Assembly (NCBI GenBank): GCA_963575745.1
Contig: CAUYUJ010015704.1
Span: 692,840-756,839 of the forward strand
DNA length: 64,000 nt
Direction: 5' to 3'
Origin: Prorocentrum cordatum
Lineage: Eukaryota > Sar > Dinophyceae > Prorocentrales > Prorocentraceae
Positions 17,151 to 51,605 of the stretch are shown here, piece by piece. Under the pieces are notes generated by a model. It was not told the DNA's origin, searched no databases, and saw nothing but the letters and a program-made list of their open reading frames with translations. The position numbers were made by a program, and so were the translations under genes. Each line of letters opens with the position of its first letter. The first letter of the stretch is position 1.

Positions 17151-17187
17151 TCCGCAGCCATTTTGGCTCAAGCCGTTTCGGCTCTAG
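17151..17187 (+). other. Dinoflagellate spliced-leader relic plus a second truncated relic
   Basis: 17,151-17,172 matches the 22-nt dinoflagellate spliced leader at every position but one: CCGCAG here for CCGTAG, followed by exact CCATTTTGGCTCAAG. Directly behind it, 17,173-17,187 reads CCGTTTCGGCTCTAG, matching the last 15 nt of the leader at 12 of 15 positions. That truncation point is expected when the AG inside an integrated leader is used as the acceptor for a new trans-splicing event. Known biology: leaders are added to mRNA by trans-splicing, so a genomic copy next to other sequence marks a reverse-transcribed mRNA. Inferred: the DNA to the right came from such an mRNA, with two rounds recorded. 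Confidence 0.85.
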
Positions 17188-26131: not shown

Positions 26132-26276
26132 CCGGGCAACATTTTGAATAGCCAGACGCTTCATATTCCTTCCGCCACAGCTGTGTTTGGTTCAGGACTT
26201 GCTAGTGACACTGCAGTCCTCTGCATTCAATTGGCCACTACATTCATTCACTGCAGTCCACTGAGTTTTGATTGCA

Positions 26277-28463
26277 ATGGCGTTCCCCTGGCCGTACCCC
26301 CATGTCCAACGTTCATCCGCAGCCTCTGCTCCGCGAGGCTCGTCCGAAGTGTCGCCGCCTCGCGGTGCTTCTCAGCCTGCGCCGCCTCGCGGTGCTTCTC
26401 AGCCTGCGGAGGAAGGTGGACAGACGCCTGGTTCTGGCGCTGTGCAGCCTGCGTCTTTCACGGTCGCCTCGTTCAATTTCGGGTTCGAGCAGGGCATGAT
26501 GACTGGTAAGCAGGCGGCCACTCACTGCGCTAACTTCGGAAGGTTGTGCGCCAAGATAGTGGAGACCGCTGATGCTGATATGGTCTGTGGCTGCGAGGTC
26601 GGTGCGTTCCGTGAAGGCTTTCGCCGAGCAGGGATCAACGTGACAGAGATCCTCAGTAAGCCTTTCGGTGATGGCATTCGCTTCTTGGAGGTCGACAACT
26701 ACTTGACTCTCTGGGGGTTCCGCGGTGCTTCTCAGCCTGCGGAACTGACTCTGTGCGAAGACAGCAAAGTTTACAGGCCTCCTAGCGGCCGAGATATTGA
26801 TGCTGTTATTTCACATTTTGAGGTGAACAAACCAGGCCATGACAAGTTCCACGTGGTGATCGCCAACATGCACATCGTGTGCGGCAAGAAACCGCCGAGC
26901 ATCCAGACTCGAAAGCGGACAGTTCGCCATCTCCGCTTGCACCTGGACGGCCTGGCCAAGATTCTTGAGAATCTAAACGAGGCAGTCGTTGTGCTTGTAG
27001 TCGGCGACGACAACCTCACTTTCCAGGAGGCGCGGGAGGCTTACCAGCGCGAGCAGAACGACGAGAAGGTATGGGAGGTCCATGCCACTCCGGCCGACCT
27101 CAAAGGCGACCACGTCGCGGTCTGCGGAGCAGTCGCCCGTTTCTGCTCCATTGCCGTTGGCGCGTCTTTTACGGATCGTGGCATGCGCAACGACGCACAC
27201 GATGCGGTGGCGGTTGTGCTCACTCTCCCTGGTGCTATTCAGCCTGGGGAGAGCAAGAGGCGGAAAATTGTCGTCGAAAACGTCTCCGACGCCGACGTCA
27301 GCGTACAGGCGGACCGCGAGTCTTCTGTGCATTGGGATCGGTCGCCGAGTTCTGCTCCTCCGCTTTCACCGACTTCACCGGGTGATCCCGACTACGTCGA
27401 GGATGTCGTTCAGAATCGCGCGGACGACTTGCACAGGGAGCTGAGGAAGCTTTGGGACGACAGGTACGACGAGGAGTACGATCCGAAAGTCCTCCATCAT
27501 CTCAGTCTCTTGCTTTTCAAAAAGAGGAAGTCCACGGAGCCAGCGGACACTGATCCAGCTGGCGCTCCTCAGCCTGGCTCGGAATATGACACGGCCTTTG
27601 CGTCTCAGGAGGAGACTGGCCGAGCCATTCTCTCTGTCCTTAAGCTTCGACATGACTTTCTGCGGAGCAAGAACATCGACGACATGCGCTACGTTCTCAC
27701 GGAGCCTGAGCGCCAGGAATTGGTCAGAGTAGCTCGCGACCAGTACGAGCAGTCGCGGCAGCAGCGTGCGCTTCAGGAACGGGATATCGAAAAGGGAAAA
27801 GCGAAAGGCAAGTCTGCGCCACAAGGGGGCCATGCGGTTCCGCAGGGTCCGAACAAAGGGCCAGGCGGTAAGAAAGGTTCTCACGGTGCTTCTCAGCCTG
27901 CGGGAAAAGGTGGCCAGGCCAAGGGTGCAGGTCTGGGTAGCGTCGCCAAGTTTGTGAAAGACCAGAAGCGTAAGCGGTGGCATCGCCATTTGCAACGTGT
28001 GGCCGGTACTAAACAGATCTGGGAGGTGCTGGCCTTCTCAGGGCGCTTCGACGTTGATTGGTTAACGCAAGCGTTGCAAGCTGATCACAGTGAGGGCCGT
28101 GATGCAGCAGTTCCCGAGGAAGCTCTGCGGCAACAGCGGCGCCGGCTGCACCACCAGAAGGCCGAGGCCATCGCGCGCTACAACGAGGGGGAGCGGCTTT
28201 CCCTATATCTGTCTGCCCAGGCTGGCCAGGCAAAGCCGAACTTCACGCGCAGGCAGCAGGACGTGTTGCAGATGTTTGAGAGCGGAGCGCTGCTTCAAAT
28301 CCGCAACCAAGCGATTCTGGCGTGCGGGCACGGCCGTCTGTTCAGGGGCGATGGCGACTACCTGGACATCGGCGGCAGCACGGGCGGTGGCTCCAGGCGC
28401 ATCATCGATTCTTGGCAGCCGCCGGACTGGCGTGACTTCCTCCAAGACGATCAGGACATCTGA
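26277..28463 (+). CDS. Endonuclease/exonuclease/phosphatase-like protein with GASQPA repeats, intronless
   Basis: 728 codons from ATG at 26,277; an in-frame TGA at 26,262 supports this start. Residues ~61-318 fit the EEP (exonuclease III/AP-endonuclease-like) fold by motif order: FTVASFNFG (Asn67), CGCEVG (Glu107), VIANMHI (Asn197, His199), VVGDDN (Asp244, Asn246) and NDAHDAV (His308). The family hydrolyses phosphodiesters with a metal ion; the actual substrate here is unknown. Residues ~345-480 are acidic and charged. ~500-570 is Lys/Gly-rich and probably disordered. ~575-728 is a basic, mostly helical C-terminal region without a recognised domain. RGASQPA peptides lie at 29-35, 38-44 and 149-155, a further GASQPA near 540, with decayed forms (GAVQPA, GAIQPG, GAPQPG) between. 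No intron is needed, consistent with a retroposed gene. It could be a host multigene family member or derived from a retroelement endonuclease. Confidence 0.75.
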   Translation: MAFPWPYPHVQRSSAASAPRGSSEVSPPRGASQPAPPRGASQPAEEGGQTPGSGAVQPASFTVASFNFGFEQGMMTGKQAATHCANFGRLCAKIVETADADMVCGCEVGAFREGFRRAGINVTEILSKPFGDGIRFLEVDNYLTLWGFRGASQPAELTLCEDSKVYRPPSGRDIDAVISHFEVNKPGHDKFHVVIANMHIVCGKKPPSIQTRKRTVRHLRLHLDGLAKILENLNEAVVVLVVGDDNLTFQEAREAYQREQNDEKVWEVHATPADLKGDHVAVCGAVARFCSIAVGASFTDRGMRNDAHDAVAVVLTLPGAIQPGESKRRKIVVENVSDADVSVQADRESSVHWDRSPSSAPPLSPTSPGDPDYVEDVVQNRADDLHRELRKLWDDRYDEEYDPKVLHHLSLLLFKKRKSTEPADTDPAGAPQPGSEYDTAFASQEETGRAILSVLKLRHDFLRSKNIDDMRYVLTEPERQELVRVARDQYEQSRQQRALQERDIEKGKAKGKSAPQGGHAVPQGPNKGPGGKKGSHGASQPAGKGGQAKGAGLGSVAKFVKDQKRKRWHRHLQRVAGTKQIWEVLAFSGRFDVDWLTQALQADHSEGRDAAVPEEALRQQRRRLHHQKAEAIARYNEGERLSLYLSAQAGQAKPNFTRRQQDVLQMFESGALLQIRNQAILACGHGRLFRGDGDYLDIGGSTGGGSRRIIDSWQPPDWRDFLQDDQDI

Positions 28464-31009: not shown

Positions 31010-32110
31010 TTTTCCCAACCATCCTGTGGTGTTGGGTCCTCGTTTTGAAGAGACGCTCCCCGCGTTCTCCTCCTTCCTTCCTTCCTTCCTTCCTCCTCCC
31101 CGTCCTCCTCCCGCTCACCCCCCCTCCCGTCACCCCCCTCATTTTGGCACACCCCTCACACGTTTGGTGGCCCCATAGGGAGCTCCACCGAAGGCCCCAG
31201 TGCTACCGTCAACCGTCCACATGCGTCCCCCGCACCCATTTCGGCACACCCCTCACACGCTTCACGGCCCCATAAAAAGCACCGACGGCTCCAGTGCCAC
31301 CGTCCACATGTGTCCCCCGCACCCATTTCGGCACACCCGTCACACGTTTCGCGGGCTCCAGGGGCACCGCCCGCATGCGTCCCCCGCACCCTTTTTGGCA
31401 CACCCCTCACACGTTTCGTGGCGAAATAGGGAGCTCCACCGAAGGCTCAAGTGCCACCGTCCACATGCGTCCCCCGCACCCATTTCGGCACACCCGTCAC
31501 ACGCTTCGTGGCTCCATAGGGAGCTCCACCGAAGGCCCCAGTGCCACCGTCCACATGCGTCCCCCATTTCGGCACACACACACACACACACATCACGCGC
31601 TTCGTGGCCCCATAGGGAGCTCCACCGAAGGCTCCATTGGCACCGCCCACATGTGTCCCCCATCCCCATGTCGGCACACCCCTCACACGCTTCGTGGCCC
31701 CACAGGGAGCTCCACCGACGGCCCCAGCGCCACCGTCCACATGCGTCCCCCACAGCAATATCGGCACCCCCCTCACACGCTTCGTGGCTCCAGAGCTCCA
31801 CCGAAGGCCCCAGTGCCACCGTCCACATGCGTCCCTCATACCCCTTTTGGCACACCCCTCACACGCTTCGTGGCCCCATAGGGGGCTCCGCCGAAGGCTC
31901 CAGGGGCACCGCCCGCATGCGTCCCCCACAGCCATTTCGGCACCCTTCTCACACGTTTCGTGGCCCCATAGGGAGCTCCACCGAAGGCCCCAGTGCCACC
32001 GTCCACATGCGTCCGCCGTACCCATTTCGAAAGGAGCGCTACCGAAGAAGATGTTCACAATTGCGGTACTCACAACTTCGTATGGTTGGGTCCTTTGCCA
32101 TGCTAGTTTT
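31010..32110 (-). repeat. 89-90-bp minisatellite element, copy C (~10 units) with both borders
   Basis: The left border 'gttgggtcctcgttttgaag' is followed by a TTCC/CCT pyrimidine run. Then come about ten units with 'catttcggcacacccctc', 'acacgcttcgtggcccca' and 'tagggagctccaccgaagg'. The right border 32,050-32,100 reads 'gcggtactcacaacttcg' and 'tatggttgggtcc'. It is in reverse orientation to the array at 11.8-13.4 kb. One unit has an expanded CA run (31,575-31,592). It is the most complete copy of the element in the window. Confidence 0.85.
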
Positions 32111-36860: not shown

Positions 36861-37665
36861 TAGTGTTTGCAGAACGGATTGTATCAGTGTTTGTCAAAGA
36901 TTGCACACTCGGTGCCCGAGAAAATGATGGCGTGCTAGCGGACCCGAGCAACCAGCTAGTCAGACACTCAGCAGGCAGCTTACTTCGCGGAAGCAAGCGG
37001 GCTTCCGCAAATGCACCCACCAGAAACAATATTTGTGTGCTGGTGCCTAAGTTGACACACTCCAAGAGGCTATTATCTTCGGTGCTATTCCTACCGTCTA
37101 CGAGTGCCCGATGCTATCACCGCCATTTCGTGCATGTTTCCTGGTTTGACGATGATGGTATTTCTGGGGGTGTGTCTCTTTCCCCCCCTTCCCATTCGCG
37201 CGTACCCTCTGCGATCGCCACGGCATGCCCCTCCGCAACGAAGTTGGCAGAGATAGGGGTCCATGGCCCAGGCCATGGCCCAGGGCACCGATGGCAATCC
37301 ATTGGGGTTGAGTTTGAATGGGAGCCGACGCGAAGCGAAGTTCCCTCTTTCCCTCTTGCCTCGAGGAGTCCCCGTGCCGTCCCCCTCCCCGCCCTAGGGG
37401 GGGGGGGGACGTCGGCGCGAGCAGCACGCCCCGCGAGCTTTCCCAGCGGCGATCTCGCGGCACCACATGGAGTTTTGTGGTTCGCCCTTGTCCCCCCTTC
37501 CGTCTTCCAGACCATGTCATCTTGATCGATTTCTTTTTCCCTTATCATCTTCCACATCCTCCGACTCTTTCCTCCTACACCTCCTCTTCTCTGCTGTGCC
37601 CCCTCTTCCCTCCTACTCCTCAATTGCTCCTTCTCATGTCCCTCATTCCCTACTCATGTTCCTCC
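36861..37665. other. Unassigned DNA ending in a pyrimidine tract
   Basis: No gene recognised to about 37,480. 37,480-37,665 is CT-rich and is the target into which the LTR element is inserted. A G10 run lies at about 37,398. Confidence 0.45.
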
Positions 37666-37863
37666 TGTGAATGGAACCCGTGTAATACCCTCATATATAT
37701 AATCCTTATCCTCACTCTCCTGCGCCTGGCCGTTTGGGCCCAGGTATTGGAACAGATCGATCAGACCTTTGATCGTGCAGGAGGAAAATATATTCATCTT
37801 TCCCTCTTTTCCTCAACCAGCGGATCAGGGGTTCTGTACCTTTGCACTCCGACCCCATACATA
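37666..37863 (+). repeat. 5' LTR of the copia-type element
   Basis: Begins TGTGAATGGAACCCG and ends CCCCATACATA, 198 bp. It pairs with 51,232-51,427; about 18 differences are counted by eye plus a 2-bp indel. It contains CTCATATATATAAT, a TATA-like stretch. The five bases before it, CCTCC, equal those after the 3' LTR. The primer-binding site just inside it ('ggtcgtcagcc') is not recognised as a standard initiator-tRNA match. Confidence 0.85.
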
Positions 37864-37927
37864 GGTCGTCAGCCTTTAAAGCTCACAGTTCATCGAACTC
37901 CGCGTCGCGATCTCGCACGCGGCCTCG

Positions 37928-40900
37928 ATGGAACCCAAGCGGCGCATGCGCCGTAAGGGGTCCGTCGGGGCCTCGCGTCCGAGCTCTCCGACGGCGCAAC
38001 GGCTCGGCGTTGAGTTGGAGAGCCTTAATGTGGACCGCGTGGGTGTCCCCGATACCCCCCCCCAGCTCAGACGGACCCGAGGCGCGGCTAGCTGCTGAAC
38101 TTCACCGCCACGCCGCCCGCGGGGGGACAGGAGAGGGAGTAGGAGTCGGGAGCAAGCGAGAGCTTCACACGCCTACCGGCAGTCGAGAGTTTCACACGCC
38201 TACCTTCGATCTTCCATCTCCTCTTCCGTCGGGAGCAATCCCAACTGCGTCGGGCGCCAGCCCCACTGGTCCCGATATTCCAGGGCGCTTCCGCGCTACC
38301 CGCCGACGGAACACAGGTAATGGCATGACCAGCCTTGCGACCGCTCCTGTAGCGGAGCACGTTGCTGCCTTTGAGGAACTCGGTAGACCAGTGGCGGCAC
38401 AGCCGCAGACGCAGCACCCCCAGGTATCATTTCGTCAGGCACCACACACACGGCCCTAGCCGCAGCTCGTCCTTGCGTAACCGTCGCGGGGCCACAGGCC
38501 CATACGACGAGACAAGGTCGAGCCAGCGTGCCGCCTTTCAGAGGCCACGCACTCCTCGCGAGAGGATGCAGAGGGGAGCTGACGCTCCCCACCTCTCTCT
38601 CTCTCTCAAGCGACCTGCCGGTGGTGGCGTCCGCTGCAGGTGAAATAGCTGAGCTCAGCGACCAGGTTGAAACCTTCGTGTCCAGGCAGTATTCTGGACT
38701 GATGCAGAGCGTTCCGGCGAACGCTGCCAACGCTGCTGCCCTACGTCAAGATTTTGACGGCGCCTTAGCGATCATTCATTCCAGGATCGGTGAAGATCGC
38801 CGCATCTTAGGTGAGCTGCAGCACCAGGTTGATCGTGAGGTGTCACACTCAGGTGAACGGTCAGCGACGGTCGAGCACCTGCGCAACTACCTTGCGCAGA
38901 TGGAGCAACAGCTTGCGACCGTCCGCGACACAGGCGTTTCAGCGGTCAGGATCCTCCACGACGAGATCCACGACCAGCTCCGCAACCGAGCGCCTCCAGC
39001 CGAGCCACCGACCTTGGCGATGTCCAGTCTCAGATCAACGATCTTCGATCCCACATGGACCACACTACAGCGACGCTTCGTGCCGAAGCAAACGCCAATT
39101 CGTCGAACCTGATCGGCATGTTGCAAAGCACTGAGAGAGTTATCGCTCGAAGGCTGGATGCGACCAACGCTGTCGCACAGCCACTCACTCTCCAGATCTC
39201 TGAAATCGAGCAGCGTTTCCCTGGTGCACTGGACGTCCTGGCATAATTGCGTGTCGGACGAGCCCAGACTGGCCAGCTGGATTCTCCTCCCACGGTTTAC
39301 GATTTCGCCCGCCCCATTGACAGGTTGCAGGAGGTTGAGAAGGCGGCGGACCACGCGCAGTCTGAGCTCTCCCAGGTTATTCGTGAGAGAGATGCTGAAA
39401 AAGGTACGCGTCGAGGAGTGTCTCACACGTCTGGACAGTGAGTTGGAAGCACACAGCGCCCGTCTCCGAGCCCACGAGCAACGACTTGATCGGTATTCAC
39501 AACGCTCTCGTGATACTGACGAGTACGCACGCCAAAAAGTGGACCATATACACGAGGATATGACGAGCTGGACAAATCAGCTGATTGACCACACCAACGA
39601 CACCACACTTCACCTTCAGCCTACAACCGACCTGCCCAGGCCGACGGCAGCGCCCGCTGAAGCACCGCGCGCTTTTGCAGGACAACAACGACGTACGTCA
39701 CCAGGAGCAGCCTCCGCGGCAGCTTCGGCACAGACACGCCACGTGTCTCCCGTGCGCACAGAACCAACTACCGACGGTGTACCGATAACCTCGCAACCAT
39801 TGTCTGCGGGCTCGGTCAATACTACTACTCCGATTAAGGAGTCAGACACCGTCCGAGTCCCTGTTTTGCCTAAGATCACACAGCTGCTTGAGTGGCAGCA
39901 AAAGGTACGGACGAATCTTGGGGCTGCTTCAGGGCGACCATCCAAAGCACATGCCTTCCTATGCGTAGCTGAACAGCCCGAATGTACCTTTGAGGACTTA
40001 CAAGACAGCGGAGACTTCGAGAGCACCGATTGCAAATTCGCTGCCGCTCTCAGCGACATCTTATCCTCCGATTTGCGCTGCCAAATCAGGCTCATCGAAA
40101 ACAGAGAGCACAAAGCAGGACGCATGCTCAAAGGACGCCAGATCTACCGGCACATCCTGCAGTCCTACAAAGTGACAGAGGTTGATGACGACATACATGA
40201 CTTTGAGCGCCTCAAAGAACTGAGGATGAGAGATGAGGGTTTGCAACGATTCGTTACCGACTGGGACGCTTTACTGCTGGATTGCCGAGAGGCGCCCGAC
40301 CCAAAGATCTTGAAATCTCTGTTTCGCACGCAGATTCGCCGACGTGCCTGGGTGAAACAGGATATGTACGAATGCCCGCGCATGAGGATCAGCGGCCCGA
40401 ATCGTACCTATGATTGGCTCCGACAGCGCGTTCTAGACGTACTGGAGCTCAAACAGCCCGAGAACTATCACAATCCATTACGGTACGAGCATGAGACTCG
40501 ATCTCAGGTGCATATCTGCGCAGCCTGGAAGAAAGGCAATTGTCGCAATGGTGAGCGTTGCAAGGCTTTGCACACCTGTTCCAGGGGTGGGAAGGACAGC
40601 ACATCTTCCCGAACATCGACTGCTGGCGGCAACGCTCGCCGCAGCGCCCCAGCCCCTGCGAATCCCAAGAAGCCAGCATCGAAGCCATTTTGCTTCGAGT
40701 TCGCCAAGCGCAGCACATGCGCACGCGGCGACAAGTGCAACTTCCCACATATGGCGCAGCGCAGTTACTTCGCACAGAACAAGTGCCACACGGGCGACAC
40801 ATGCAAATACGCTCGCCCGGCACCTGGTACGAAGACACCTGAGCGAAGCCCCGGCCGCCCACGGACTTCCAGTCAGGGCAGTCGCGGCCGACCGCCGTCC

Positions 40901-41060
40901 CGCGGATCAGGGAGCCGACGATCTCCACAACGCGGGGGGTCCCGCAGCGCGGGGGGGGCTCATGCAGCAGACGTGGCAACCGACGCCAATGCGACCGATC
41001 TCGACCATTCTCCAGGAGGTCTACAGACTCTCGCAGTCAGTCGAGAGGTCGCTATGATAG
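37928..41060 (+). pseudogene. Gag: coiled coils and CCCH zinc fingers, frameshifted
   Basis: A plausible start is ATG at 37,928 (MEPKRRMRRKGS). The frame breaks near the C9 run at 38,054-38,062, again near 38,450-38,530, and again near 39,060. It meets TAA at 39,244 and returns to the main frame at about 39,395. 38,640-39,480 encodes heptad-like helices (EIAELSDQVETF, LRNYLAQMEQQLATV, LTRLDSELEAHSARL). A core domain at about 39,860-40,460 has LLEWQQKVRTNLG and LKELRMRDEGLQRFVTDWDA, resembling retroelement Gag cores. At 40,517 a C-X7-C-X5-C-X3-H finger begins. Near 40,690 there is a canonical C-X8-C-X5-C-X3-H finger, then a partial third. Arg/Ser-rich text follows. Gag would form the particle and bind RNA. 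CCCH fingers in place of the usual CCHC knuckle are unusual. Confidence 0.7.
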
Positions 41061-41280
41061 ATCATCACGATCCTCCTCCCGAGGACGAGACGGGCGTGGC
41101 GGGGGACGTGGCAGCCCACGTGGCCGCGACAGATCATATGGCAGCGACAGGGGACGTAACCGACGTTCAACGAGCCGCGGCTCTTCTCGTGGCTCCCCCA
41201 AGTTCAGGGCACGCTCTCCCGCTACCTATCGCCGACCGCGCCACTCCGACCGCAGTTGCGTCATACGCGATAAGACTCTC

Positions 41281-41997
41281 ATGGCCGTCCACAAGGCCGA
41301 GACAGCATCTACCAAACCACGGCGTCGGATACGTTTTGGCACACATACCGTGGAATACTACCCGTGCATCGTTTCTGGCAGGTCCATCCTGGATAAGTGG
41401 ATGGAGAAGCCACATGAGGGCGATATCGTCAAAGTACCAGACCCGCTGCCACAATGGTGGTGGAAACAGAGAAAAGACGCCCTACATCGATGTCAACGGG
41501 AGGCTAAGTTATGGCATCAGGACCTACACGGCTACCGACGCGACAAGGCGTCGGTGGAGACGCAAATTGCGATCCCAGGTTCCGACGACTCTACCACAGA
41601 GTCCTCCGAGACACACCAGGAGAAGACAGTGGCTCCGCAAGTCGACCCACCACGATCGACAGCTGCACTGACACGCTCCTGGGTTCTCGACAGTGGGTCT
41701 GCGCACCAAATTTAGGATAAGACCGAGCTGACGCAGACCGAATCGGATCGCATATCTATTCGCGAGGAGCATATGCTGGAAACTGCCAATGGTGATCGTC
41801 GTGTCAACGAGCACTACGACATCCAACTACCCGAGGTGGGCTTGAAGGGTTCAGCCCTCGCATTGCCAGATTGCCCATCGTTATCATCAGTTGGGCAATT
41901 GATTGAGGTTGATGGCTTTCGGCAGCTTTGGGACCCAAAGCTGGGCTACATGCTTCGGGATCCGGGGTGGCCAATGGTATCAGGCTCCCGTCAATAA
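41281..41997 (+). pseudogene. Pol N-terminus: aspartic protease with in-frame stop
   Basis: One frame runs through 41,281-41,997 with a single TAG at 41,713. Just before the stop is SWVLDSGSAHQI (Asp codon at 41,689), the copia-type protease motif [W-LDSG-x-x-H]. Beyond the stop, MLETANGD and LIEVDGFRQLWDPKLGYML follow, as in the protease and Gag-pre-integrase part of related elements. The enzyme would cut the Gag-Pol polyprotein. The join to Gag is in another frame, so either a frameshift was used or the frame is lost. Confidence 0.65.
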
Positions 41998-42271
41998 CAG
42001 AGTTCCAGAACTACGCCTCGACGATTTGGCGACGATACCACCGCCACAATTGTCCACTTCATCAGCGCCCAGACGTCGTCAGCGCAAGCGTTCTTCTGCA
42101 TGCTGCAACGACATATGCTGGCGTTGCAAGACTCCAGAGCAGTCACCACCTACGGATGAGCAGCGGCCCCACCTAGGGACCTGTCCCAGGAGACAACATG
42201 TCGGTGAGGGGGGGGGAGCACGGACCGCTACGGTCGAATAACCTCCCGACACACATAATGCCGAGTCCAGC

Positions 42272-43000
42272 GTGGGTGCACACAGCGACTCGCCTACGTC
42301 TCAGAAGCAGCGTTTTCATCCCACAGGCGGGGGGCCTGCAGGTACAGCTCAAGCAGATGCCGACATCACGTCGACCTCCCTCGAGGATCTGCAGATGGAG
42401 ACGCTCGTCAGAGTGCGCCATGATAGTGATCGCGTTCTTCCAAACCGACAGAAGAAACCAATCGATCCTATGCATTACATGACCCACAGTCCAAAACATC
42501 CAGACTGTGAGATTTGCTCTCGCACCATGGCGCAGAACGCCCCGTGCAGACGACAGCACAAACCACATCCACCGGCAGCCCCCACTGATGAGGACACAGC
42601 CTACGAGGCTTTCGCCCCGATGAAATTTGGGGAGGCTCTAACTGCCGACCATGTCGTTGACAAGCACGATGGCCAAGGACGATGCCGCTGACAAGCACGG
42701 TGGCAAGTGCGCACTTGTCGTACTGGACAGATGCACCGGCATCTTCACGGCATGCCCAGCATTGCATAAAGACGCAGCCGCTACGAAGGCATCTTTCCAG
42801 CAGTTCATCGCCGCGAGCGATGAGGTGAAGCACGTATATACGGATAGTTCAGGAGAGCTCCAGAAGGCGCGCCGCCAACTGGGATGGAGACACGACACTT
42901 AGCACCCCTCATCGTCCACAAACAAATGGATTCATCGAGCGCGTTGTCAAGATCGTCATCCTCGGCGCGAGAGCTGCGTTGCATATGTCTGGTCTGGGAC
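42272..43000 (+). pseudogene. Integrase, split over three frames
   Basis: HYMTHSPKHPDCEIC (around 42,470-42,515) is an HHCC zinc-binding segment. LTADHVV (about 42,640) gives the first catalytic Asp. VYTDSSGEL (about 42,835) gives the second, in another frame. HRPQTNGFIERVV, in a third frame after TAG at 42,900, gives the catalytic Glu at 42,937. All three residues of the D,D,E triad are therefore present, but not in one frame. The enzyme would insert the cDNA into the genome. Confidence 0.7.
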
Positions 43001-44563
43001 ACCAGTGGTGAAAAAGAGGCCATGCAAGCCATTTGTTGTGGACGCAACTTTGCGCGCCCATCCACGGGCGTTGCCGCTCTTAGCGAAGAGCATGCTGACA
43101 AGACAGCTCATGAGATACGTTTTGGTGAGAGTTTTCCCGGGCACTGCGTTCCATTTGGAAATGCCTCAATCCCGAGATTAGCGACGAGACTGCAAAGTTC
43201 AAAGAAAATACTCGGGGATACTTATTTATGGTTTACCATTTACATTCAGGTGGACGTTGGTGATTATCTCGTCTTGGATACGGCCACATACGCCAAGAAC
43301 CCAGACGGCGACCTGTGCCACGCACACAGAGTCAAAGACATTCTTATTCCCGACGGCAAGTTCACCTCCCCAGTGAAAGACGGTACCCTACGACATCACA
43401 ACCCGGAGGCACACGACGAGGTCAAGGCATCTATTTCTCGTCCCTTGGGCGACAAACCTATGCCCGACCTTCCACTTGCCTACCCAAAGGAGTGGGGTGA
43501 TCCATCTATGATGACGATGGATGACAACACCGCCGATACTCACCCATCGGCCCCAGAAGTTGCTGGCCCAGCACCGGAGCCCGACTACTGGGAACAGCGT
43601 GGATATTGCATCATCCGACACATCCGTACTCCGCGAAGAAAGTTATTCATACCAACAGACGATGATATGAACATACCTGTGCCAGTTGATCAGCTCGATG
43701 TGGCGCGAGACTTTGAGACGACCTCTACCTTCGAGGGAGAGGGTGTCTTCCGCGACGTTTGGGATGGTGTTAGCGCAGCAGACCACCGTGAGCTTAGCGA
43801 GCCTTGGATCGGCCTAGCTCGGTTCTATGAGCTCCCTAAGATGTTGCCGGACGGCAGAATGGTGGTCCGCGGCCGTGAAACGCGCGCACAGAATACTACG
43901 CGTCCAGACCACATTCTTCCCGAGCGTTGGAAGACCTTGTCTCGGGGACAACAAAAGAAGGATATTGAGTACGCAGAAGACATCAAACAAGCACGCGAGG
44001 CTCGTGAACGAGCTGCACTTCGAGCGTGGACCCGACACGACAAACAAGCCAAACATTTCCGCACTACTACGGCTGTTGGACCCACGTGGAATACCGTGGA
44101 ACGCCGTATTACCTACGATGTGGACAGCGGAGCTGTCATTCGTGACGAGGACGTCAATGGCGTGACCAACGAAGAAATTCTGTATGCCAAACTACCTGGC
44201 GGACCACGTGACATCTCTACCGTATTATACTACCGCCAACCCTCACCACAGCCTGCTGGGGTCGCACGTACTCTGGTACTTGTTGACAGTGAGGGGAACG
44301 ACTTCGGGGCCGCGAACCCGCTCACGCGCAAGTTTACCCCGTCGGTAGCAGTGCCAACTTTGCCACGTGGACCCACCTACACACCGGCACACAGAGATAA
44401 GATTCCTGACTCATCATGGGCACGCCCAGCCGTTGTTACTAGAAATTATAACAAGCGAGAAGTTGCCGCAGAGCCACGCGCGCAGGAAGCCCTACGCATA
44501 GAGTACGAGCGCTTTGAAAAGAAGCAAACATGGATGATAGAGAGTGCCGCTGAAAAAAGATGA
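42884..44563 (+). CDS. Post-integrase linker of Pol
   Basis: A single open frame of 559 codons. The first ~40 codons overlap the integrase end out of frame; from about 43,000 the text is protein-like. It holds HEIRFGESFPGHCVPFG, VDVGDYLVLDTATYAKNPDG and DYWEQRGYCIIRHIRTPRRKLF. A charged helix runs around 43,940-44,040, and the end QEALRIEYERFEKKQTWM typically precedes a copia RT. It links integrase to reverse transcriptase. It closes at TGA right after an A6 run (about 44,552-44,557), beyond which the RT sequence continues in another frame. Confidence 0.6.
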   Translation: METRHLAPLIVHKQMDSSSALSRSSSSARELRCICLVWDTSGEKEAMQAICCGRNFARPSTGVAALSEEHADKTAHEIRFGESFPGHCVPFGNASIPRLATRLQSSKKILGDTYLWFTIYIQVDVGDYLVLDTATYAKNPDGDLCHAHRVKDILIPDGKFTSPVKDGTLRHHNPEAHDEVKASISRPLGDKPMPDLPLAYPKEWGDPSMMTMDDNTADTHPSAPEVAGPAPEPDYWEQRGYCIIRHIRTPRRKLFIPTDDDMNIPVPVDQLDVARDFETTSTFEGEGVFRDVWDGVSAADHRELSEPWIGLARFYELPKMLPDGRMVVRGRETRAQNTTRPDHILPERWKTLSRGQQKKDIEYAEDIKQAREARERAALRAWTRHDKQAKHFRTTTAVGPTWNTVERRITYDVDSGAVIRDEDVNGVTNEEILYAKLPGGPRDISTVLYYRQPSPQPAGVARTLVLVDSEGNDFGAANPLTRKFTPSVAVPTLPRGPTYTPAHRDKIPDSSWARPAVVTRNYNKREVAAEPRAQEALRIEYERFEKKQTWMIESAAEKR

Positions 44564-45627
44564 GATTGAATCGCAGGCGATTCGTGCAGGGAAGAAGGTT
44601 CACTTCTTCAACATATTGGAACTTTTCTTCAGTCAAACACGAAGAACTTCCTCCTGAACTACGTGAGTTCAAGGGCCGCGTGGTGGTTCAGGGCAACACT
44701 GCCAAAGACGAAACTGGCCTGGCCGCCATCTTCGCCGACGCGGCATCCAGTGCGTCGCATATTGAAGCTTCCAAGCTCTGTGACGCCACAGCGTCATTGC
44801 CAAATCATGGAGGCGAGCAGAGCGATGCGCCCGGCGCATACACGCAAGCCTTACGGTACGGAGACGGACGAATCGACCCAGTCGATACTTGGATTATTAT
44901 ACCTAAGTGGCGTCAACCTGCATCCTGGTCTAAATACAGGAATCCCGCGTGCCGACTACGATTGGCACTATACGGACACCCTCTCGCATGTGTGTATTTA
45001 GAGCCAAAGTGTCGCACGTGTCTGGAAAGTGTTGGATTTGAGCCTATCCCAGGATGGGAACGTGTGCGGAGACACAACAAACTGGGATTGATTTTTTCAG
45101 TATACGTGGGCGACTTCAAACTTGCAGGGCCAGCCGCCAATTTATACGCTGGCTGGGATCTGATCCGCAAGAGCGGCATTGATTTGGATCCGCCTACTCC
45201 GTACTCTCAATACCTTGGCTGTGGACAACAGGCATACGACGTTTCCCAGAACGTCTTCGACAAAACAATGTCTACCATTCGACCTATGTTGCCTGCCCAC
45301 AGTGACAAATATTATCATACAGCTAAACAAGTTCGTGGAATACGACATGACATGCTTGGTTTTACTGATCAATGTATTGAGCGCTACCTGGAGTGCGCCT
45401 CCAAGCGTTCCCAAGGGCCAGGGTCACGTCGTAAACGGTCTGACTCCCCGAGGGCTTCGCGATCCACATCGCCTAGCTCCTCTGGGTCGGTCGTGAGACC
45501 CACTGGCGCGCTCAACGCACGGTCGCGATCATCCAGCCCAGCTGGGTCGGTCGACAGACTTCTACTGCGACACAATCCACGACAATCACATACGATGACT
45601 TACCCGACGCAGAGACTCCTGGCATAG
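44560..45627 (+). pseudogene. Reverse transcriptase (copia type) with altered active site
   Basis: From about 44,630 the frame reads HEELPPELREFKGRVVVQGN, then AIFADAASSASHIEASK, APGAYTQAL, RLRLALYGHPLACVYLEP, VGFEPIPGWERV, SVYVGDFKLAG and DPPTPYSQYLGC. These match, in order, the copia RT domain (RVT_2). The catalytic YVDD is YVGD here: GGC at 45,109-45,111 where GAC or GAT is expected. The invariant Asp pair is thus broken and the enzyme should be inactive. The final 60 codons are Ser/Arg-rich. Confidence 0.75.
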
Positions 45628-45695
45628 AGGACACATCTTGTACCGAGTCCGATTACTCCGACGAGGGTATCCTCGGCCAGGACGCGGCGAGCGTA

Positions 45696-45902
45696 TTGAT
45701 GGAGATTCTCTACCTGGCACGCTGTTGTCGTTTCGATCTTTTGCATCCAGTATGCATGCTAGCCAGAGAGATTACCAAAATGCTACATCAAACCGACGCG
45801 CACCCATCTGCTAATATGCTACATCAAACCGACGCGCACCCATTGTTCACATGGATGGATTGGCGATGCTTCAAATACGCTATCCATCATGCTCTTCACT
45901 GA
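45696..45902 (+). pseudogene. Pol connection segment with 36-bp in-frame duplication
   Basis: VLMEILYLARCCRFDLLHPV and MLAREITKM correspond to the connection between RT and RNase H in copia elements. MLHQTDAHPSAN is duplicated through a 36-bp tandem repeat starting at 45,781 and 45,817, probably slippage. The frame differs from both neighbours. Confidence 0.55.
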
Positions 45903-46640
45903 TGCCTCGTTTGCCGATTGCATTACCTCCTCCAAGTCCACCGCTGGCGTTTTCGCGGCGCTGCTTGGGCCCAATGCGTTCTTCCCCGTCAATGCCGTGT
46001 GCAAGAAACAGACGGTCGCCTCGCGCTCATCCACAGAGTCCGAGAGCGTTGTTCTTGACTCGGCGCTACGACTGGACGGACTACCACTACTCTCATTTTG
46101 GAAGCAGTGGTGGAGGTTGATAACACCTGCAAAGAGAAGACGACATGCCTGGGCTGCCTCGGACGCACCTCTACGGCAATATGTCCGACCCTGGCCGCCA
46201 AAAAGAAGAGGCGCAAGCCGTCGCCTCGCAAGGCGTCCCCATGCACGGGGATCTTCTCCTAGCCGTAGGCAGCTACCGCTGAAGACGGAACTACCTGCTC
46301 CTCCAAAGGGGCGCACGATATCCCACGAGGGTACTGTGCTACACGTGGACCCAGAGCCTGCTCGGGAAAGCAGCTCTCCCAACGTGCATCTCATCGTCCT
46401 AGAGGACAACCAGGCCGTGATCAAGATTGTCCAATAGGGACGTACACCAGCATTTCGTCATCTTCATTGTACTCATCGTATTAACTTGGATGGACATGCA
46501 AGACATGCCAACTTGAACACCTTGAGCTCAAGTATGTGGGTACAAAAGAACAAATTGCAGATATGATGACTAAACATTTTGAACCAACGAAAGCAGATCT
46601 CTGGAGGGGCCTATTGGAACACTCGCTCATCTTCCCTGTT
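45889..46640 (+). pseudogene. RNase H and C-terminus of Pol
   Basis: LFTDASFADCITSSKSTAGVF supplies the first Asp, SRSSTESESVV the Glu, and VLEDNQAVIKIV (about 46,400) the next Asp of the RNase H centre. About 60 codons of basic sequence between the last two may be an insertion. After TAG at 46,435 the text continues in another frame as RHLHCTHRINLD and then YVGTKEQIADMMTKHF, the characteristic copia C-terminus, ending near 46,640. The enzyme would remove template RNA during cDNA synthesis. Confidence 0.7.
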
Positions 46641-47111
46641 GCCCCTTTGCAGCGTGCTCCAAAGAACCCTTGGAGACCATTGCGAGGGCCTCGGAGGCCC
46701 GATGGTTTGCCTCATATCGCAGAACCTCCAAAACTGCATGGATGTCTGGAAACGTGCGGGCTATTACTTACCGACAAAGAAAAATGGGGCGAGACAGGGG
46801 CAGCATGCGGATCCATGTGTGTTGGACATTCCGATCGCGAGGGCCTACATGCATGTGCGTGCCATATCGGCGTTCCTGCGGCGGCGACCGATTCGCGAAC
46901 ACCCCGAGCGAGGGCTCGCTCACCACATGGTAGACACCCTCGTCATCCCCCACCGCCATCGCATAGTACAGAGAGGTCTAGGACACTTATGATACGACCC
47001 CGCCGCAGCTGTTTTACCACTCGAGCGACGAAGTTTGTCAGCATATTGCTCGCTGTGTGCGAGACTCGCTCACGAGAGATCGGTTCTAACCCCGATCCCC
47101 CCATTCCCGGG

Positions 47112-48285
47112 ATGGACCAGGCGTCGCCCCTCAACCTCAACGGCTGGGCCATCGCCTGCGGCGCCAACCGCGACCCGAACGCCGCGGACGGCGACCGCGT
47201 GGGCTTCACGTTCCTCGCTCAGACGGGTCGCCCTCGCGACGCCGAGGATGGCTTCGTCTACGTGCATCATCTGCGCTCCGACCATAGTGCAGAGTATGAT
47301 CTACGAGCGCCCGATGAGTCCGCCCTTGTCGAGTTTACCCGCTTCGCGTCCATCGACGCGGCCTGGTTGTATCGGCAAAGCTATGGGTGGAGTCGGCGGC
47401 AAAGCCCACTACGAATACAGTGCGACCACGGCCACACCGTGGATGTCATCCATGAAGGCCATGTTCATGATCTCCAGCCTCTTCACGCGCAACACATCCG
47501 TCCAGGAAAACATTCGTGGTCTACATGATCACTTGCATGCTGCGGTTCCTGGGTCATACCGCAAGTGCCCGCCAATGGAACTTGCGACGGCGGTGTTAGA
47601 GTGGATGATGATGCACAACGACTGGTCGAAAGTGGGCAGTGCATTGTTTGGGCAATATTCCATGGACACCGTCCAGGATACAAGTCAGCTGTACAAGGAG
47701 GGACTTTGTGCGCCTCCAGACGTATACAGCCACGGTTTGCCCACCCCCAGCTACGCTCCGAGTCTTGATTGCGTTGCGATCAAACTTCCCGTGCGCCCAC
47801 CTGGTCTGGCCAGGGCATCAGACACGGCGGGGCACCTCGGGCATGCCGTCGGGGACCATCTCGTCACCGAAATGAGGGCATTCTCCGACCTCCACCAGAC
47901 AAGTCGCTTCCGCCGCAAGCTCAGCACGTGGCAGACTACACGCGGAGAGTTTGGAGGAATCGGCTCAAGCCCCCAGACGGTGGCAACGCCATCCGACCAC
48001 TCTGACGGCTGGATCACCCCCCCAGAGCATGGCGAGAGTCATTGGCAGCCATACGAGGAGGAAACTGTGCTCGCAGGAGAAGAGCCTACCGTGGAGGACC
48101 CTGGTATCACTCCTGGATCAGCCATAGACCCGCTCGGGCTAGCACAGGCAAAATACAGTGCGTTTTGTGGTGGTCGACTGGTTTCCGCTCTTCTTTCAGA
48201 CAGCGGATGGCATGGGATCATACAGAGGGACTTGGGACTTCTCCTTCACCATGCCTTCGGCTTGCCGGGGCATGCATATGCATGA
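47112..48285 (+). CDS. Cargo ORF A between pol and 3' LTR, function unknown
   Basis: The coding impression begins at ATG 47,112 (MDQASPLNLNGWAIACGANR), continues in that frame to about 47,480, and shifts to a second frame that stays open to TGA at 48,283. The second part reads CPPMELATAVLEWMMMHNDW, SKVGSALFGQYSMDTVQ and FSDLHQTSRFRRKLSTWQTT. Composition is ordinary, with no low-complexity runs. No family recognised. The stop overlaps the ATG of the next ORF as ATGA. It follows the Pol C-terminus by about 470 bp. Confidence 0.45.
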
Positions 48286-49322
48286 ACAAATTTGTACACC
48301 GATTCTACGTGTATCATGCACAAGCAAGGTTCCAATCCGCCCCACACAAGAAGTATCCAGGGTACGGCATCGACGAGCTCAACAGCCCACAGCAGCGAGA
48401 CGCCCTCGCCAGGGCGTCAAATTTTGGCCTTGTACCTCTCTTCGTGCCGTGCCTCAACCGAGCGGAGTACATGGGCGGCGCCACCCTCGAGCATCTGTCA
48501 ATATTTATCCGTGGCGACATCCTGATGTGCGCGTTCCCATATGGCAATTACAAAGAATGGTTCAAGCAGAACGACACTCCGATCAGTCAGGATTGTGTTA
48601 TATTGCCGGAGGCTGGTGGCGACACCCGCTGCGGCATGGCAAAGCTCCGCGAGCAGCCCGCCAGGACACAGGACAACCGCACCGCAGTGATCTTGGATTC
48701 GCAGTTTGAGTCTACGCTCGAACAGCGAAACATGATCCTCATGATCCGCAAGGCCAGAGCCTTGTCACTGATGGACGACAATCATTCAATGGCTGAGTGG
48801 CGTAAACTGAATGAACTCATATGGGACGATTGGGTTAACGACTTCCTTGCATACGTGAAACACAGGCACTACAGCAGGGGTATCAACGCCATGGTGGTCT
48901 GGAGCGCAAGCGATATTGCTTGCGCTAACCATGGTCAGCACTGGTTGGACACCCGACGCCACCAGGATCGCGCTCCCACCAACGTGCGCGGACTCATGAA
49001 GATGGAGTGCCAGGATGGCGCCCCGACGCTTACGCCAGTACACGTGCAAGTGGACTTGTCACGATTCATCGACGTGATGCAATACTTCCGTTGCCCCACC
49101 GTCATGGGGCCGGGCAAAGCAGCGCAATGGGGCGTACACCCTAATTTTGACCATCACACGAGCGACCTGACCAGGGCTATGCAATGTCGTGGTTTCACGG
49201 TGCTCCCTTCAGACCACTGGGTTGAGTCGTGCGACAGAGCCACGCCTACGGCTTGGCATTCTGAGCAGAATAATCACAATCTGGCAATGATGACGACCCA
49301 GTTTTGTGATGCGGTATGCTAG
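48282..49322 (+). CDS. Cargo ORF B, 346 codons, function unknown
   Basis: Starts at ATG 48,282, overlapping the stop of ORF A, and stays open to TAG at 49,320. It is the longest intact cargo frame. The protein is mixed alpha/beta-like, rich in Trp, His and Met: HRFYVYHAQARFQS, FIRGDILMCAFPYGNYKEWF, NELIWDDWVNDFLAYVKHR, AMVVWSASDIACANHGQHWL. No transmembrane segment and no recognised motif. It might be a host gene picked up by the element or an unusual envelope-position ORF. Confidence 0.5.
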   Translation: MNKFVHRFYVYHAQARFQSAPHKKYPGYGIDELNSPQQRDALARASNFGLVPLFVPCLNRAEYMGGATLEHLSIFIRGDILMCAFPYGNYKEWFKQNDTPISQDCVILPEAGGDTRCGMAKLREQPARTQDNRTAVILDSQFESTLEQRNMILMIRKARALSLMDDNHSMAEWRKLNELIWDDWVNDFLAYVKHRHYSRGINAMVVWSASDIACANHGQHWLDTRRHQDRAPTNVRGLMKMECQDGAPTLTPVHVQVDLSRFIDVMQYFRCPTVMGPGKAAQWGVHPNFDHHTSDLTRAMQCRGFTVLPSDHWVESCDRATPTAWHSEQNNHNLAMMTTQFCDAVC

Positions 49323-50063
49323 CGCAATTTCTGTGCGTTGATCCAGCCGTTACCATCACAGCCATATCCATTCCGACCTCTTCTTCTGACAGCCGTCACG
49401 GGTTCGCAGGCCTACACACAGGCCAAAGAGATCATGGAGGTTCTTCACTTTCGTGAGAAAATGACTAATGAATGGAAAAGGCACCTCAGCCTCACGACGC
49501 TGATGACTCAGACCGCAGGGGAGCTGGCTCATTGTGCATGGATGGCTTCCTGTGCCAGTGGCACGTTGCCGAAATCAATGCCGTTGGCAACAAGCGATCC
49601 ATATTTGCCTATCCCTGGACTCGCAAATGAGCCGCCAGCACCAGATCCAGCGAAACCCAGTAAAATTGATGATCCATATGGTGAGGCATACGAGGAGTTG
49701 TTCAACCAGCTTCTTATCCTGATGAACGATTACCCGGGCGCGTGGGCATCCTGGGAGTCAGACGAGAAAAAGGAACTCCTTCACCCCGCAATAGTGAAGG
49801 AAACCAAGGACGCACATGCTGTCACATGGGTTGTCTACGAACAGTTCCTGCTCCAAATCAACGACACCGCAGGTGATGACGACAAAGCGAGGTTACGCCT
49901 CATTGCTGAGCGCAATATACTGAGCTCTCATCGCGTCGGTCCTCGCATTGGCAACTCGGATACCATTATGGCACGCAAAGGTTTCTTTCTACACGCAGAA
50001 TGCCTTGGATCGCATCGCCATGGGGCTCCCGGCCGACGCTCCAGTCGCTGTCATCGTCGATGA
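49323..50063 (+). CDS. Cargo ORF C, function unknown
   Basis: It continues in the same frame as ORF B right after its TAG, so B and C may once have been one ORF with a nonsense change. First ATG is at 49,434. Text includes EIMEVLHFREKMTNEWKRHL, DDPYGEAYEELFNQLLILMN and VTWVVYEQFLLQINDTAGDD. It is helix-rich with no family recognised. The last ~30 codons look out of frame; the sense continues in the next frame from about 49,980. Confidence 0.4.
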   Translation, partial: RNFCALIQPLPSQPYPFRPLLLTAVTGSQAYTQAKEIMEVLHFREKMTNEWKRHLSLTTLMTQTAGELAHCAWMASCASGTLPKSMPLATSDPYLPIPGLANEPPAPDPAKPSKIDDPYGEAYEELFNQLLILMNDYPGAWASWESDEKKELLHPAIVKETKDAHAVTWVVYEQFLLQINDTAGDDDKARLRLIAERNILSSHRVGPRIGNSDTIMARKGFFLHAECLGSHRHGAPGRRSSRCHRR

Positions 50064-50577
50064 GCCCGCCGCAGCCCCACCCGATGGCTCTGCGACAGCT
50101 GGGACACCCCAGCACAGTGAGGACAGGCAGCCCCTGCCGCCAGGCCCGCTCACGATCGACACGCCGCCTGAGCCACTGCCGCCATGCCCGCTCCCGATCG
50201 TCACGCCACCTGAGCCATTGCCACCAGGTGCGCTTCCGATCAGCATGCCTGCTGAGCCATTGCCACCAGGCCCGCCCCCGACCGCCGTGCCAGCCCCGCT
50301 CCCGGACGAGGGCGCTGACGTGGGCGGGGCGCGGAGCTGGGAGCAATTCCTGCTGACGGTGCGCCTTCGCCTGGTCAGCAATCGGATACGGTGCATATCC
50401 TGTCGTGGCAAGACTGGTGCGAGCGATCGTACCATGAGGGCACAATCCAAATCCCTACATTCGACAATGCATGCATTCCTCGTGAGTACAAGCTTCAAGC
50501 AGGTCAGGCGGATGATCATCCATATGCGCCGGCTCCGTTGCGGGGCACGAACGCACCAAATGGCATGGATTGCTTGA
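49948..50577 (+). CDS. Cargo ORF D, Pro-rich segment
   Basis: From about 49,990 the frame gives ALDRIAMGLPADAPVAVIVD, followed by a Pro-rich stretch with four 14-residue repeats (PLPPGPLTIDTPPE type). About 50,330 onward the sense seems to pass to another frame. It probably joins the helix-rich part (ORF C) to the C-terminal part (ORFs E and F) as a flexible linker. Confidence 0.35.
   Translation: MATRIPLWHAKVSFYTQNALDRIAMGLPADAPVAVIVDEPAAAPPDGSATAGTPQHSEDRQPLPPGPLTIDTPPEPLPPCPLPIVTPPEPLPPGALPISMPAEPLPPGPPPTAVPAPLPDEGADVGGARSWEQFLLTVRLRLVSNRIRCISCRGKTGASDRTMRAQSKSLHSTMHAFLVSTSFKQVRRMIIHMRRLRCGARTHQMAWIA
50131..50298 (+). repeat. 4 x 42-bp tandem repeat in the cargo
   Basis: Units start at 50,131, 50,173, 50,215 and 50,257. 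Each encodes P-L-P-P-x-P/A-L-x-I-x-x-P-x-E or a variant. The period is a multiple of three, so the repeats stay in frame. Confidence 0.8.
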
Positions 50578-50669
50578 AGAACGATGATTGGGCGTGCCAA
50601 GTGGCATACGACGACTGCGTGATTACCCACGCGCCAGATATTGCCCAATCTGGCTGCTTCCCAGAGTAG
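50391..50669 (+). CDS. Cargo ORF E, fragment, function unknown
   Basis: Open from about 50,391 without an ATG start to TAG at 50,667, in the same frame as ORFs B, C and F. Text: ILSWQDWCERSYHEGTIQI, NGMDCLKNDDWACQVAYDDC. It is separated from ORF F only by its stop codon, so E and F were probably one protein. Confidence 0.35.
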   Translation: MHILSWQDWCERSYHEGTIQIPTFDNACIPREYKLQAGQADDHPYAPAPLRGTNAPNGMDCLKNDDWACQVAYDDCVITHAPDIAQSGCFPE

Positions 50670-50675
50670 AAATGG

Positions 50676-51236
50676 ATGTCACTACCGCCATACGACCAGA
50701 CTCGTTATGGTCCAGTGCTGCTTACGGATGAATGGATTGGTTGCCCTACATGCATGAGCAAGGATATCACGACCATGCTCCGCCATGCAAACCACAGCAA
50801 CCCTTTTCATATTGACAAATTTCCGGACCGACGGGTCAACATATGGTCCACGAAGGCACAGCAGACCTGGACGTTTCCCAGCCGCTGGAAATCCTTCCAG
50901 GAAATGGTCCAATGGAAATTCGCAGAGCGACGTGGCCATTCCAACGGGCCATCCACTGAGGCGGCCGTGACACACTTTCACAAAGACGGCGATTACTACC
51001 CGATATTCATCCTCCGCGCGCTCCAGAAACACATCGACCCGGACAAGAATAGGATCGAAGTGTTCGCCAAATCGATTCCTGCCGAGGGCGACCCCAGCTG
51101 CTTCGATTGGAGCAGCGTCATTGCTATCCGATGCGTTGGGGGACACAGTTGCGCCAATCCACTCCCCAAGCCATGGAATATGGGCTGGGAGAGCTTACAA
51201 TGGACAGACGTCAAATACCTACACCACGGCATGTGA
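50676..51236 (+). CDS. Cargo ORF F, Tpt1/KptA-like C-terminal pattern, cut by the 3' LTR
   Basis: 186 codons from ATG 50,676; the last codons lie in the LTR. The first half has a possible metal site (IGCPTCMSKDITTMLRHANH). The second half reads ILRALQKHIDPDKNRIEVF, then VIAIRCVGGHSCANP and finally VKYLHHGM. Known RNA 2'-phosphotransferases (Tpt1/KptA), which remove a 2'-phosphate using NAD, have in order a helical segment, ..DK.RF.., IRA.QGHS and LYHGT. Here IR, GHS and HG occur at about the right spacing, while Q is G and F is I. In that family the chain continues well past HGT with another catalytic Arg; here it stops at HHGM where the LTR begins. The assignment is tentative. Confidence 0.35.
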   Translation: MSLPPYDQTRYGPVLLTDEWIGCPTCMSKDITTMLRHANHSNPFHIDKFPDRRVNIWSTKAQQTWTFPSRWKSFQEMVQWKFAERRGHSNGPSTEAAVTHFHKDGDYYPIFILRALQKHIDPDKNRIEVFAKSIPAEGDPSCFDWSSVIAIRCVGGHSCANPLPKPWNMGWESLQWTDVKYLHHGM

Positions 51237-51427
51237 ATAGAACCCGTGTGATACCCTCATATATACTCCTTATCCTCACTCTCCTGCGCCTGGCCGTTTG
51301 GGCTCAGGTATTGGAATATATCGATTAGACCTTTGATCGTGCAGGAGGAGAAGATATCCATCTTTCCCTCCTTTCCTCGACCAACGGATCAGGGGTTCTG
51401 TACTTTTGTACTCCAGCCCCATACACA
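51232..51427 (+). repeat. 3' LTR of the copia-type element
   Basis: 196 bp, TGTGAATAGAACCCG to CCCCATACACA, matching the 5' LTR at roughly 90% by eye. It is followed by CCTCC. No polypurine tract is evident directly upstream, which is odd for an LTR element and may reflect replacement of the element's 3' interior by captured sequence. Confidence 0.85.
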
Positions 51428-51605
51428 CCTCCTGCTCCTCCACCTCCGTTGTACTTTCCTCCTCTCCTTGTCCTCCTCCTCATTCTCCTCCTCCTCATTC
51501 TCCTCCTCGGTGCCTTCTTGTCATCCTTCCCCTTCTCCTTCGCCTCATCTACCCCCTCCTCCTCGACCCCGTCCTTTTTCCCTCGCCCCCCCCCCCCCCC
51601 GTATC
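51428..51605. repeat. Pyrimidine tract, right half of the insertion target
   Basis: C/T-rich sequence with CTCCTC words and a C14 run near 51,587-51,600. It continues the tract at 37,480-37,665 that the LTR element interrupts. Confidence 0.85.

Follow-up and report, generated by a model that had tools for sequence, protein, structure and literature searches.

The 64,000-nt stretch of Prorocentrum cordatum DNA analysed here in full (the window) contains, at positions 37,666–51,427 of the + strand, a copia-like long terminal repeat (LTR) retrotransposon that is old and decayed. Between the end of Pol, near 46,640, and the 3′ LTR, which starts at 51,232, the element carries a large additional sequence that, from about 47,113 to the LTR, is derived from former protein-coding sequence in the sense orientation beyond what chance would produce. 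This cargo amounts to an open reading frame (ORF) of about 1,370 codons overall, and its last part, ORF E, looks like a fragment of the RNA 2′-phosphotransferase Tpt1/KptA. The parts of the element are as follows, where z denotes a codon score relative to shuffled sequence and "frame path" a calculation of the best coding frame.

37,661–37,665, no strand: target-site duplication CCTCC, 5′ copy
37,666–37,863, +: 5′ LTR, 198 nt, TGTG...CATA
38,610–41,257, +: Gag region with CCCH zinc fingers, coding-like in frames f2/f1/f2 (frame path, switch penalty 8)
41,258–41,955, +: protease region with the active-site-like WVLDSGSAH (frame path; motif by eye)
42,345–43,260, +: integrase region with several frameshifts (sub-threshold rve match in 42,642–42,899)
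44,554–45,481, +: reverse transcriptase of copia type (sub-threshold RVT_2 match)
45,885–46,640, +: RNase H-like region and Pol C-terminus, several frameshifts (frame path; motifs by eye)
46,641–47,112, +: spacer without coding-like character in any of the three sense frames
47,113–48,281, +: cargo part A, with an ATG start, in f0 as far as about 47,369, then in f1 up to about 48,154, the remainder without a clear frame (frame path; z 4.6 and 3.7, last stretch at most 1.4)
48,282–49,319, +: cargo ORF B, 346 codons from its ATG, intact (z 5.0; 5.7 against mononucleotide shuffles)
49,323–49,977, +: cargo part C, in the ORF B frame after one stop (z 5.1; 6.0 against mononucleotide shuffles)
49,978–50,325, +: proline-rich part in the +1 frame (z 4.1; frame change not visible in 300-nt windows)
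50,326–50,666, +: cargo part D, again in the ORF B frame (z 4.8)
50,670–51,236, +: cargo ORF E, resembling the Tpt1/KptA RNA lobe (z 4.0; 4.4 against mononucleotide shuffles)
51,232–51,427, +: 3′ LTR, 196 nt, TGTG...CACA
51,428–51,432, no strand: target-site duplication CCTCC, 3′ copy

The paired LTRs and target-site duplication that characterize LTR retrotransposons are both present. The LTRs are 90.8% identical (178 matches, 15 transitions, 3 transversions and 2 gap positions; Kimura two-parameter distance 0.100), and CCTCC stands on either side of the element. The flanks are C/T-rich, and the duplication is supporting rather than decisive because 28 of the 46 × 46 possible 5-mer pairs between them (1.3%) match. 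The GC content of the window is 59.0%, and a review table that lists 59.7% for P. cordatum gives 46–51% for the other species shown alongside it (PMC11453091).

Within Gag-Pol, the copia assignment rests on domain order and motif more than on profile score. The putative integrase region lies upstream of the reverse transcriptase region, the order seen in copia, with an rve match that stays below the Pfam cut-off (E 0.014 at 42,642–42,899) and does not recur in the joined reading. The RVT_2 match is likewise sub-threshold, with E 0.042, or 0.059 in a longer reading, and 13–14 bits against a cut-off of 31.6. The RNase H-like region gave no Pfam match and is read by motif alone, and the Pol C-terminus KYVGTKEQIADMMTKHFEP was recognized by eye at about 46,530–46,590. 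Between the two halves of the RNase H motif, in 45,885–46,426, there is a basic stretch of about 100 residues that resembles an insertion when inspected by eye. The Gag segment 39,398–41,257 bears CCCH fingers in place of the usual CCHC knuckle, with matches just under the cut-offs to Torus (2.6e-06, 28.4 bits against 29) and zf-CCCH_DUS3L (7.5e-06, 26.3 bits against 30).

Coding character of the sequence behind Pol

Stop-free stretches and stop counts were compared with dinucleotide-preserving shuffles (n = 500). The longest stop-free stretches in 46,641–51,231 span 438 and 430 codons; the longest in the 500 shuffles of this region was 354 codons (mean 202), and only one shuffle reached 346, the length for which ORF B is indeed intact, as the first-pass annotation had stated. 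The same annotation described the sequence from 48,282 onward as lying largely in one frame with a few stops, which is correct: up to 51,233 the ORF B frame has 8, against 27 and 32 in the other two frames and 29.7 ± 4.9 in shuffled sequence (minimum 17).

A codon model trained on the Gag-Pol pieces only gave z scores of 5.0 for ORF B, 5.1 for part C and 4.0 for ORF E, which none of 300 dinucleotide shuffles of each attained; codon use in the cargo is Gag-Pol-like. In a second test, which compared the three sense frames of each segment with mononucleotide shuffles, each of the seven larger segments beginning at 47,113 reached z 3.7–6.0 in its best sense frame. The signal is weak in 48,155–48,281 (z 1.4 at best), and none was detected in any of the three sense frames of the spacer, the first 470 nt after Pol (z 0.7, 0.2 and 1.0). 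Shuffles and codon scores thus bear out the initial claim of extra coding-like sequence between Pol and the 3′ LTR, while its extent, put there at about 4.6 kb, is reduced to some 4.1 kb (47,113–51,231), because 46,641–47,112 looks non-coding in the three sense frames.

On a finer scale, the ORF B frame is the best of the three sense frames in nine of ten 300-nt windows across 48,400–51,100 (counted by eye), and the best sense score exceeds the best antisense score in 11 of 13 such windows over 47,100–51,100. Six of the eight stops in the ORF B frame cluster in 49,978–50,325, a part that is open in the +1 frame and, taken as a whole, scores better in that frame; the measures disagree here, since two 300-nt windows still favour the ORF B frame slightly. 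This proline-rich part includes four copies of a 42-bp (14-residue) tandem repeat at 50,129–50,296. At the downstream end, the frame path remains in coding frames to 51,218, 13 nt short of the LTR, and the stop codon of ORF E, TGA at 51,234–51,236, falls within the 3′ LTR.

Profile hidden Markov model searches, proposed in the first-pass annotation and run on the cargo ORFs, yielded no Pfam or NCBIfam family above cut-off, in keeping with its statement that no standard retroelement protein is recognizable. The weak matches of ORF B to siroheme decarboxylase (E 0.052) and of part of ORF E to a Cap17-like family (E 0.27) were taken as chance. Among approximately 5.8 billion proteins, there was no match to ORF B or to the Pol ORF preceding the reverse transcriptase (both at an E limit of 1, the latter with the 7995 candidates sharing most words scored), nor to a 984-residue reading of 48,282–51,233 with X at the eight stops (E limit 10). 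Viral contigs contained no relatives of ORF B, part C, ORF E, the reverse transcriptase or the Pol ORF preceding it, and genome contigs none of ORF B or the reverse transcriptase; these contig collections are viral or prokaryotic and say little about dinoflagellates. A plasmid collection held no relative of ORF B. Sequence comparison with the PDB returned nothing for ORF B, two chance-level matches for the reverse transcriptase (E 0.2) and one for ORF E, to a galactoside acetyltransferase (E 0.83), and Rfam gave no matches at gathering thresholds. Structure prediction, also suggested at the outset, was carried out for ORF B and ORF E by AlphaFold without an alignment, and the resulting models are unusable (predicted local distance difference test scores of 34.6 and 34.9, respectively).

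The first reading of the locus left open whether the cargo is captured host coding sequence or an undescribed class of ORF in the envelope (env) position. Its position and coding derivation stand, and of the two options the captured sequence is now favoured. An envelope role finds no support: the 19-residue Kyte-Doolittle mean peaks at 1.32 among the seven ORFs tested, so a membrane span is unlikely, and by hydropathy, a measure that does not cover signal peptides, the cargo has neither the membrane-spanning glycoprotein of retroviruses nor the transmembrane env-like ORF of Sirevirus.

Likeness of ORF E to Tpt1/KptA

ORF E contains the segments LRH, DKNR, AIRCVGGHS and YLHHG in the order in which their counterparts occur in Tpt1/KptA. 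In the solved Tpt1 structure, Arg18, His19, Lys66 and Arg68 contact phosphates; Arg18, His19 and Arg68 belong to the RNA lobe, and a C-terminal module forms the NAD+ lobe (PMC6333775). By our own mapping, LRH and DKNR of ORF E would correspond to the Arg-His and Lys-x-Arg pairs of Tpt1.

An ordered four-block score built from seven KptA proteins, one from E. coli and six of phage origin, reached 58.3 for ORF E, a value attained by none of 3000 shuffles (maximum 55.4), and ORF E ranks first by this score among the 326 ORFs of at least 100 amino acids in the window, the next scoring 40.9. A profile of the seven KptA sequences likewise puts it at the top of the 658 ORFs with 60 amino acids or more, and above 1000 shuffles. 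Taken singly, the IRxxGHS block was equalled by none of 5000 shuffles, LYHG by 15, LRH by 45 and DKxR by 164; for LYHG, the YLHHG segment was scored with a truncated block, and the test was confined to the tail that follows GHS. When 19 sliding 16-column KptA blocks were compared with ORF E, three exceeded z 2.5, namely LRH, IRxxGHS and one block from the second half that is out of order.

Several observations count against this likeness. The fourth block of the ordered score fell on an unrelated stretch rather than on YLHHG, which lies too near the end of ORF E for the length of the block. The KptA profile match amounts to just 5.2 bits over 15 aligned residues, Pfam PF01885 was not reported for ORF E, or for two pieces cut from it, at E values up to 10, and pairwise comparison with E. 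coli KptA gave a p value of 0.03. In addition, the Tpt1 blocks are short, and both they and the family were picked after the IRxxGHS motif had been noticed.

ORF E thus shares with Tpt1/KptA the ordered LRH, DKxR, IRxxGHS and LYHG-like signatures, and differs in its wider spacing, in going unreported by Pfam and in having no NAD+ lobe with the fourth Arg of the catalytic tetrad, as it ends inside the LTR right after YLHHGM. Judged by these motifs, it looks like the RNA lobe of a Tpt1/KptA protein, with the LTR cutting in where the NAD+ lobe should begin. Because that lobe is lacking, the product would not be a working phosphotransferase. Dinoflagellates may have multi-copy proteins with C-terminal Tpt1-like domains. 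A literature search, covering the listed titles and abstract openings of open-licence papers, found neither a Tpt1-like domain in a retrotransposon nor a description of the present element.

Origin of the cargo

With a switch penalty of 8, the frame path through Gag-Pol (38,610–46,498, approximately 7.9 kb) contains 3 stops and 11 frame changes, of which two mark the entry to and the exit from a non-coding stretch, and that through 46,499–51,218 (approximately 4.7 kb) contains 2 stops and 4 frame changes (all counts by eye). At a penalty of 6, there are 19 frame changes and 2 stops versus 10 and 1. Since the cargo is about as decayed as Gag-Pol, it was probably present when the element inserted. 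No polypurine tract adjoins the 3′ LTR: the last 15 nt contain 7 purines, and the best purine run within 100 nt of the LTR measures 8 nt, ends 86 nt away and is equalled or surpassed in a fraction of 0.71 of 300 random stretches.

The leading explanation, which we hold tentatively, is that a copia element inserted while carrying, behind Pol and ahead of the 3′ LTR, a large sense ORF that had been acquired through template switching and cut short at U3. Capture is preferred to the other readings because the end of the cargo resembles a Tpt1/KptA RNA lobe cut at the LTR. In such an event, the reverse transcriptase, having copied U3, would switch to the interior of a second RNA, conceivably a cellular message or that of another mobile element ending in a Tpt1 domain, copy this donor and then return to the element RNA behind pol. 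Capture of this kind from another mRNA would join U3 directly to the middle of the Tpt1-like domain, leave the stop codon to be supplied by the LTR and account for the lack of a polypurine tract before the LTR. How plus-strand DNA would be primed after the switch is left unexplained by this model. The resulting protein would retain the pairs mapped to the RNA lobe (Arg-His and Lys-x-Arg), lose the NAD+ lobe and most likely be a passenger. Captured coding sequence of 4 kb in a copia element would be an instance of gene capture in the env position beyond plants and animals, and the Tpt1-like lobe joined to the LTR provides a concrete, testable junction.

Somewhat less probable is that the cargo represents a third ORF kept stably in a copia lineage of dinoflagellates, carried by every active member and used, for instance, to provide an RNA-binding accessory protein or an extension of Pol, in which a Tpt1 lobe taken up long ago has been trimmed. 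The Gag-Pol-like codon use and similar decay of the cargo agree with this, and a 347-codon open frame at 46,485–47,525, which joins the Pol C-terminus to the first cargo codons without a stop, would suit a polyprotein; in plants, the region from pol to the 3′ LTR is described as the most frequent place for additional ORFs, sense or antisense (PMC7264820). The spacer without coding signal does not fit, nor does the lack of a polypurine tract, since a lineage that transposes repeatedly should retain one. It seems unlikely, in particular, that a stable ORF of about 1,370 codons ends in a Tpt1-derived RNA-recognition lobe whose catalytic half was shed at the LTR. If the ORF were family-wide, it would have to be asked why a retrotransposon needs a lobe that recognizes RNA 2′-phosphates, and a stable third ORF would make this an RNA-repair enzyme turned retrotransposon accessory protein, a new class of env-position ORF.

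Improbable, in turn, is the insertion of a separate gene, retrogene or mobile element into this copia copy after it had integrated. Nested insertions are common, and the host seems to insert retroposed genes, as indicated by a spliced-leader relict at 17,152. The cargo itself contains no spliced-leader match with up to three mismatches, however, and its level of decay is like that of Gag-Pol. In 46,400–51,240, no flanking repeats of at least 16 nt mark a nested insert (shorter flanking duplications are not excluded); the repeats of this size, both within the cargo, are the 42-bp tandem array and a single inverted pair of 23 nt that is imperfect (74% complementary). The cargo also reaches the LTR without recognizable element sequence in between, so that a nested insert would have had to strike the edge of the LTR and remove the polypurine tract. 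Chance open frames in non-coding, GC-rich DNA are a very remote prospect even in a window of 59% GC with other long open frames in low-complexity DNA, and are rejected for 48,282–51,233 (8 stops against the shuffle minimum of 17), as no shuffle came as low in stops or as high in open-frame length or in the codon scores for ORF B, part C and ORF E.

Other features of the window and comparison with known systems

Elsewhere in the window, the 21-nt dinoflagellate spliced leader matches 17,152–17,172 with one mismatch, in agreement with a dinoflagellate host, and none of 100 shuffles holds such a match; a degenerate second leader-like stretch follows by eye, and the site is probably a retroposed mRNA. 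Tandem repeats of 89–90 bp occur on both strands at 11,860–13,429, 31,354–32,029 and 623–925, the first two being related by blastn and the third apparently so by eye. One 101-bp tandem repeat forms two arrays, at 19,846–20,905 and 23,303–24,161, which are approximately 84% alike. On the + strand, 26,265–28,460 is an open frame of 732 codons with no Pfam family above threshold.

Few dinoflagellate retroelements seem to have been described in detail. Dinoflagellate genomes are portrayed as large and retroelement-rich (PMC11453091), and partial analogies to the present element can be drawn from several lineages. Like the Sirevirus elements of plants, it is of Ty1/copia type and has a sense ORF in the interval from pol to the 3′ LTR. 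Sirevirus elements have CCHC Gag motifs and a signature of multiple polypurine tracts, and their ENV-like genes share little beyond transmembrane and coiled-coil domains (PMC3414828). The present element differs in its hydropathy maximum of 1.32, its CCCH Gag fingers, the lack of a tract abutting the LTR and, probably, its non-plant host. Retand, from plants, has a comparably large region between pol and the 3′ LTR (2.9–6.6 kb), with tandem repeats in about half of the elements; it belongs to Ty3/gypsy, and its ORFs are antisense (PMC11963269).

Comparable to the favoured capture by template switching are maize Bs1 and other cases of transduced genes, in which host coding sequence lies in sense inside an LTR element (PMC7264820); for the present element, the donor gene is hypothetical. 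In plant elements, a transduced gene is found in a single copy or a few, whereas many of the remaining additional ORFs are present in most or all copies (PMC7264820). Parallels by host are SymbioLINE-Dnmt and SymbioDIRS-Dnmt3 of Symbiodinium. These differ from the present element in being long interspersed nuclear element (LINE) and DIRS retrotransposons, in carrying DNA methyltransferases (DNMT) and in having many conserved copies, and Symbiodinium copia elements are said to have no DNMT domain (PMC5890265). They nonetheless share with it the feature of a dinoflagellate retrotransposon into which a host enzyme domain has been taken (PMC5890265), if ORF E indeed stems from Tpt1.

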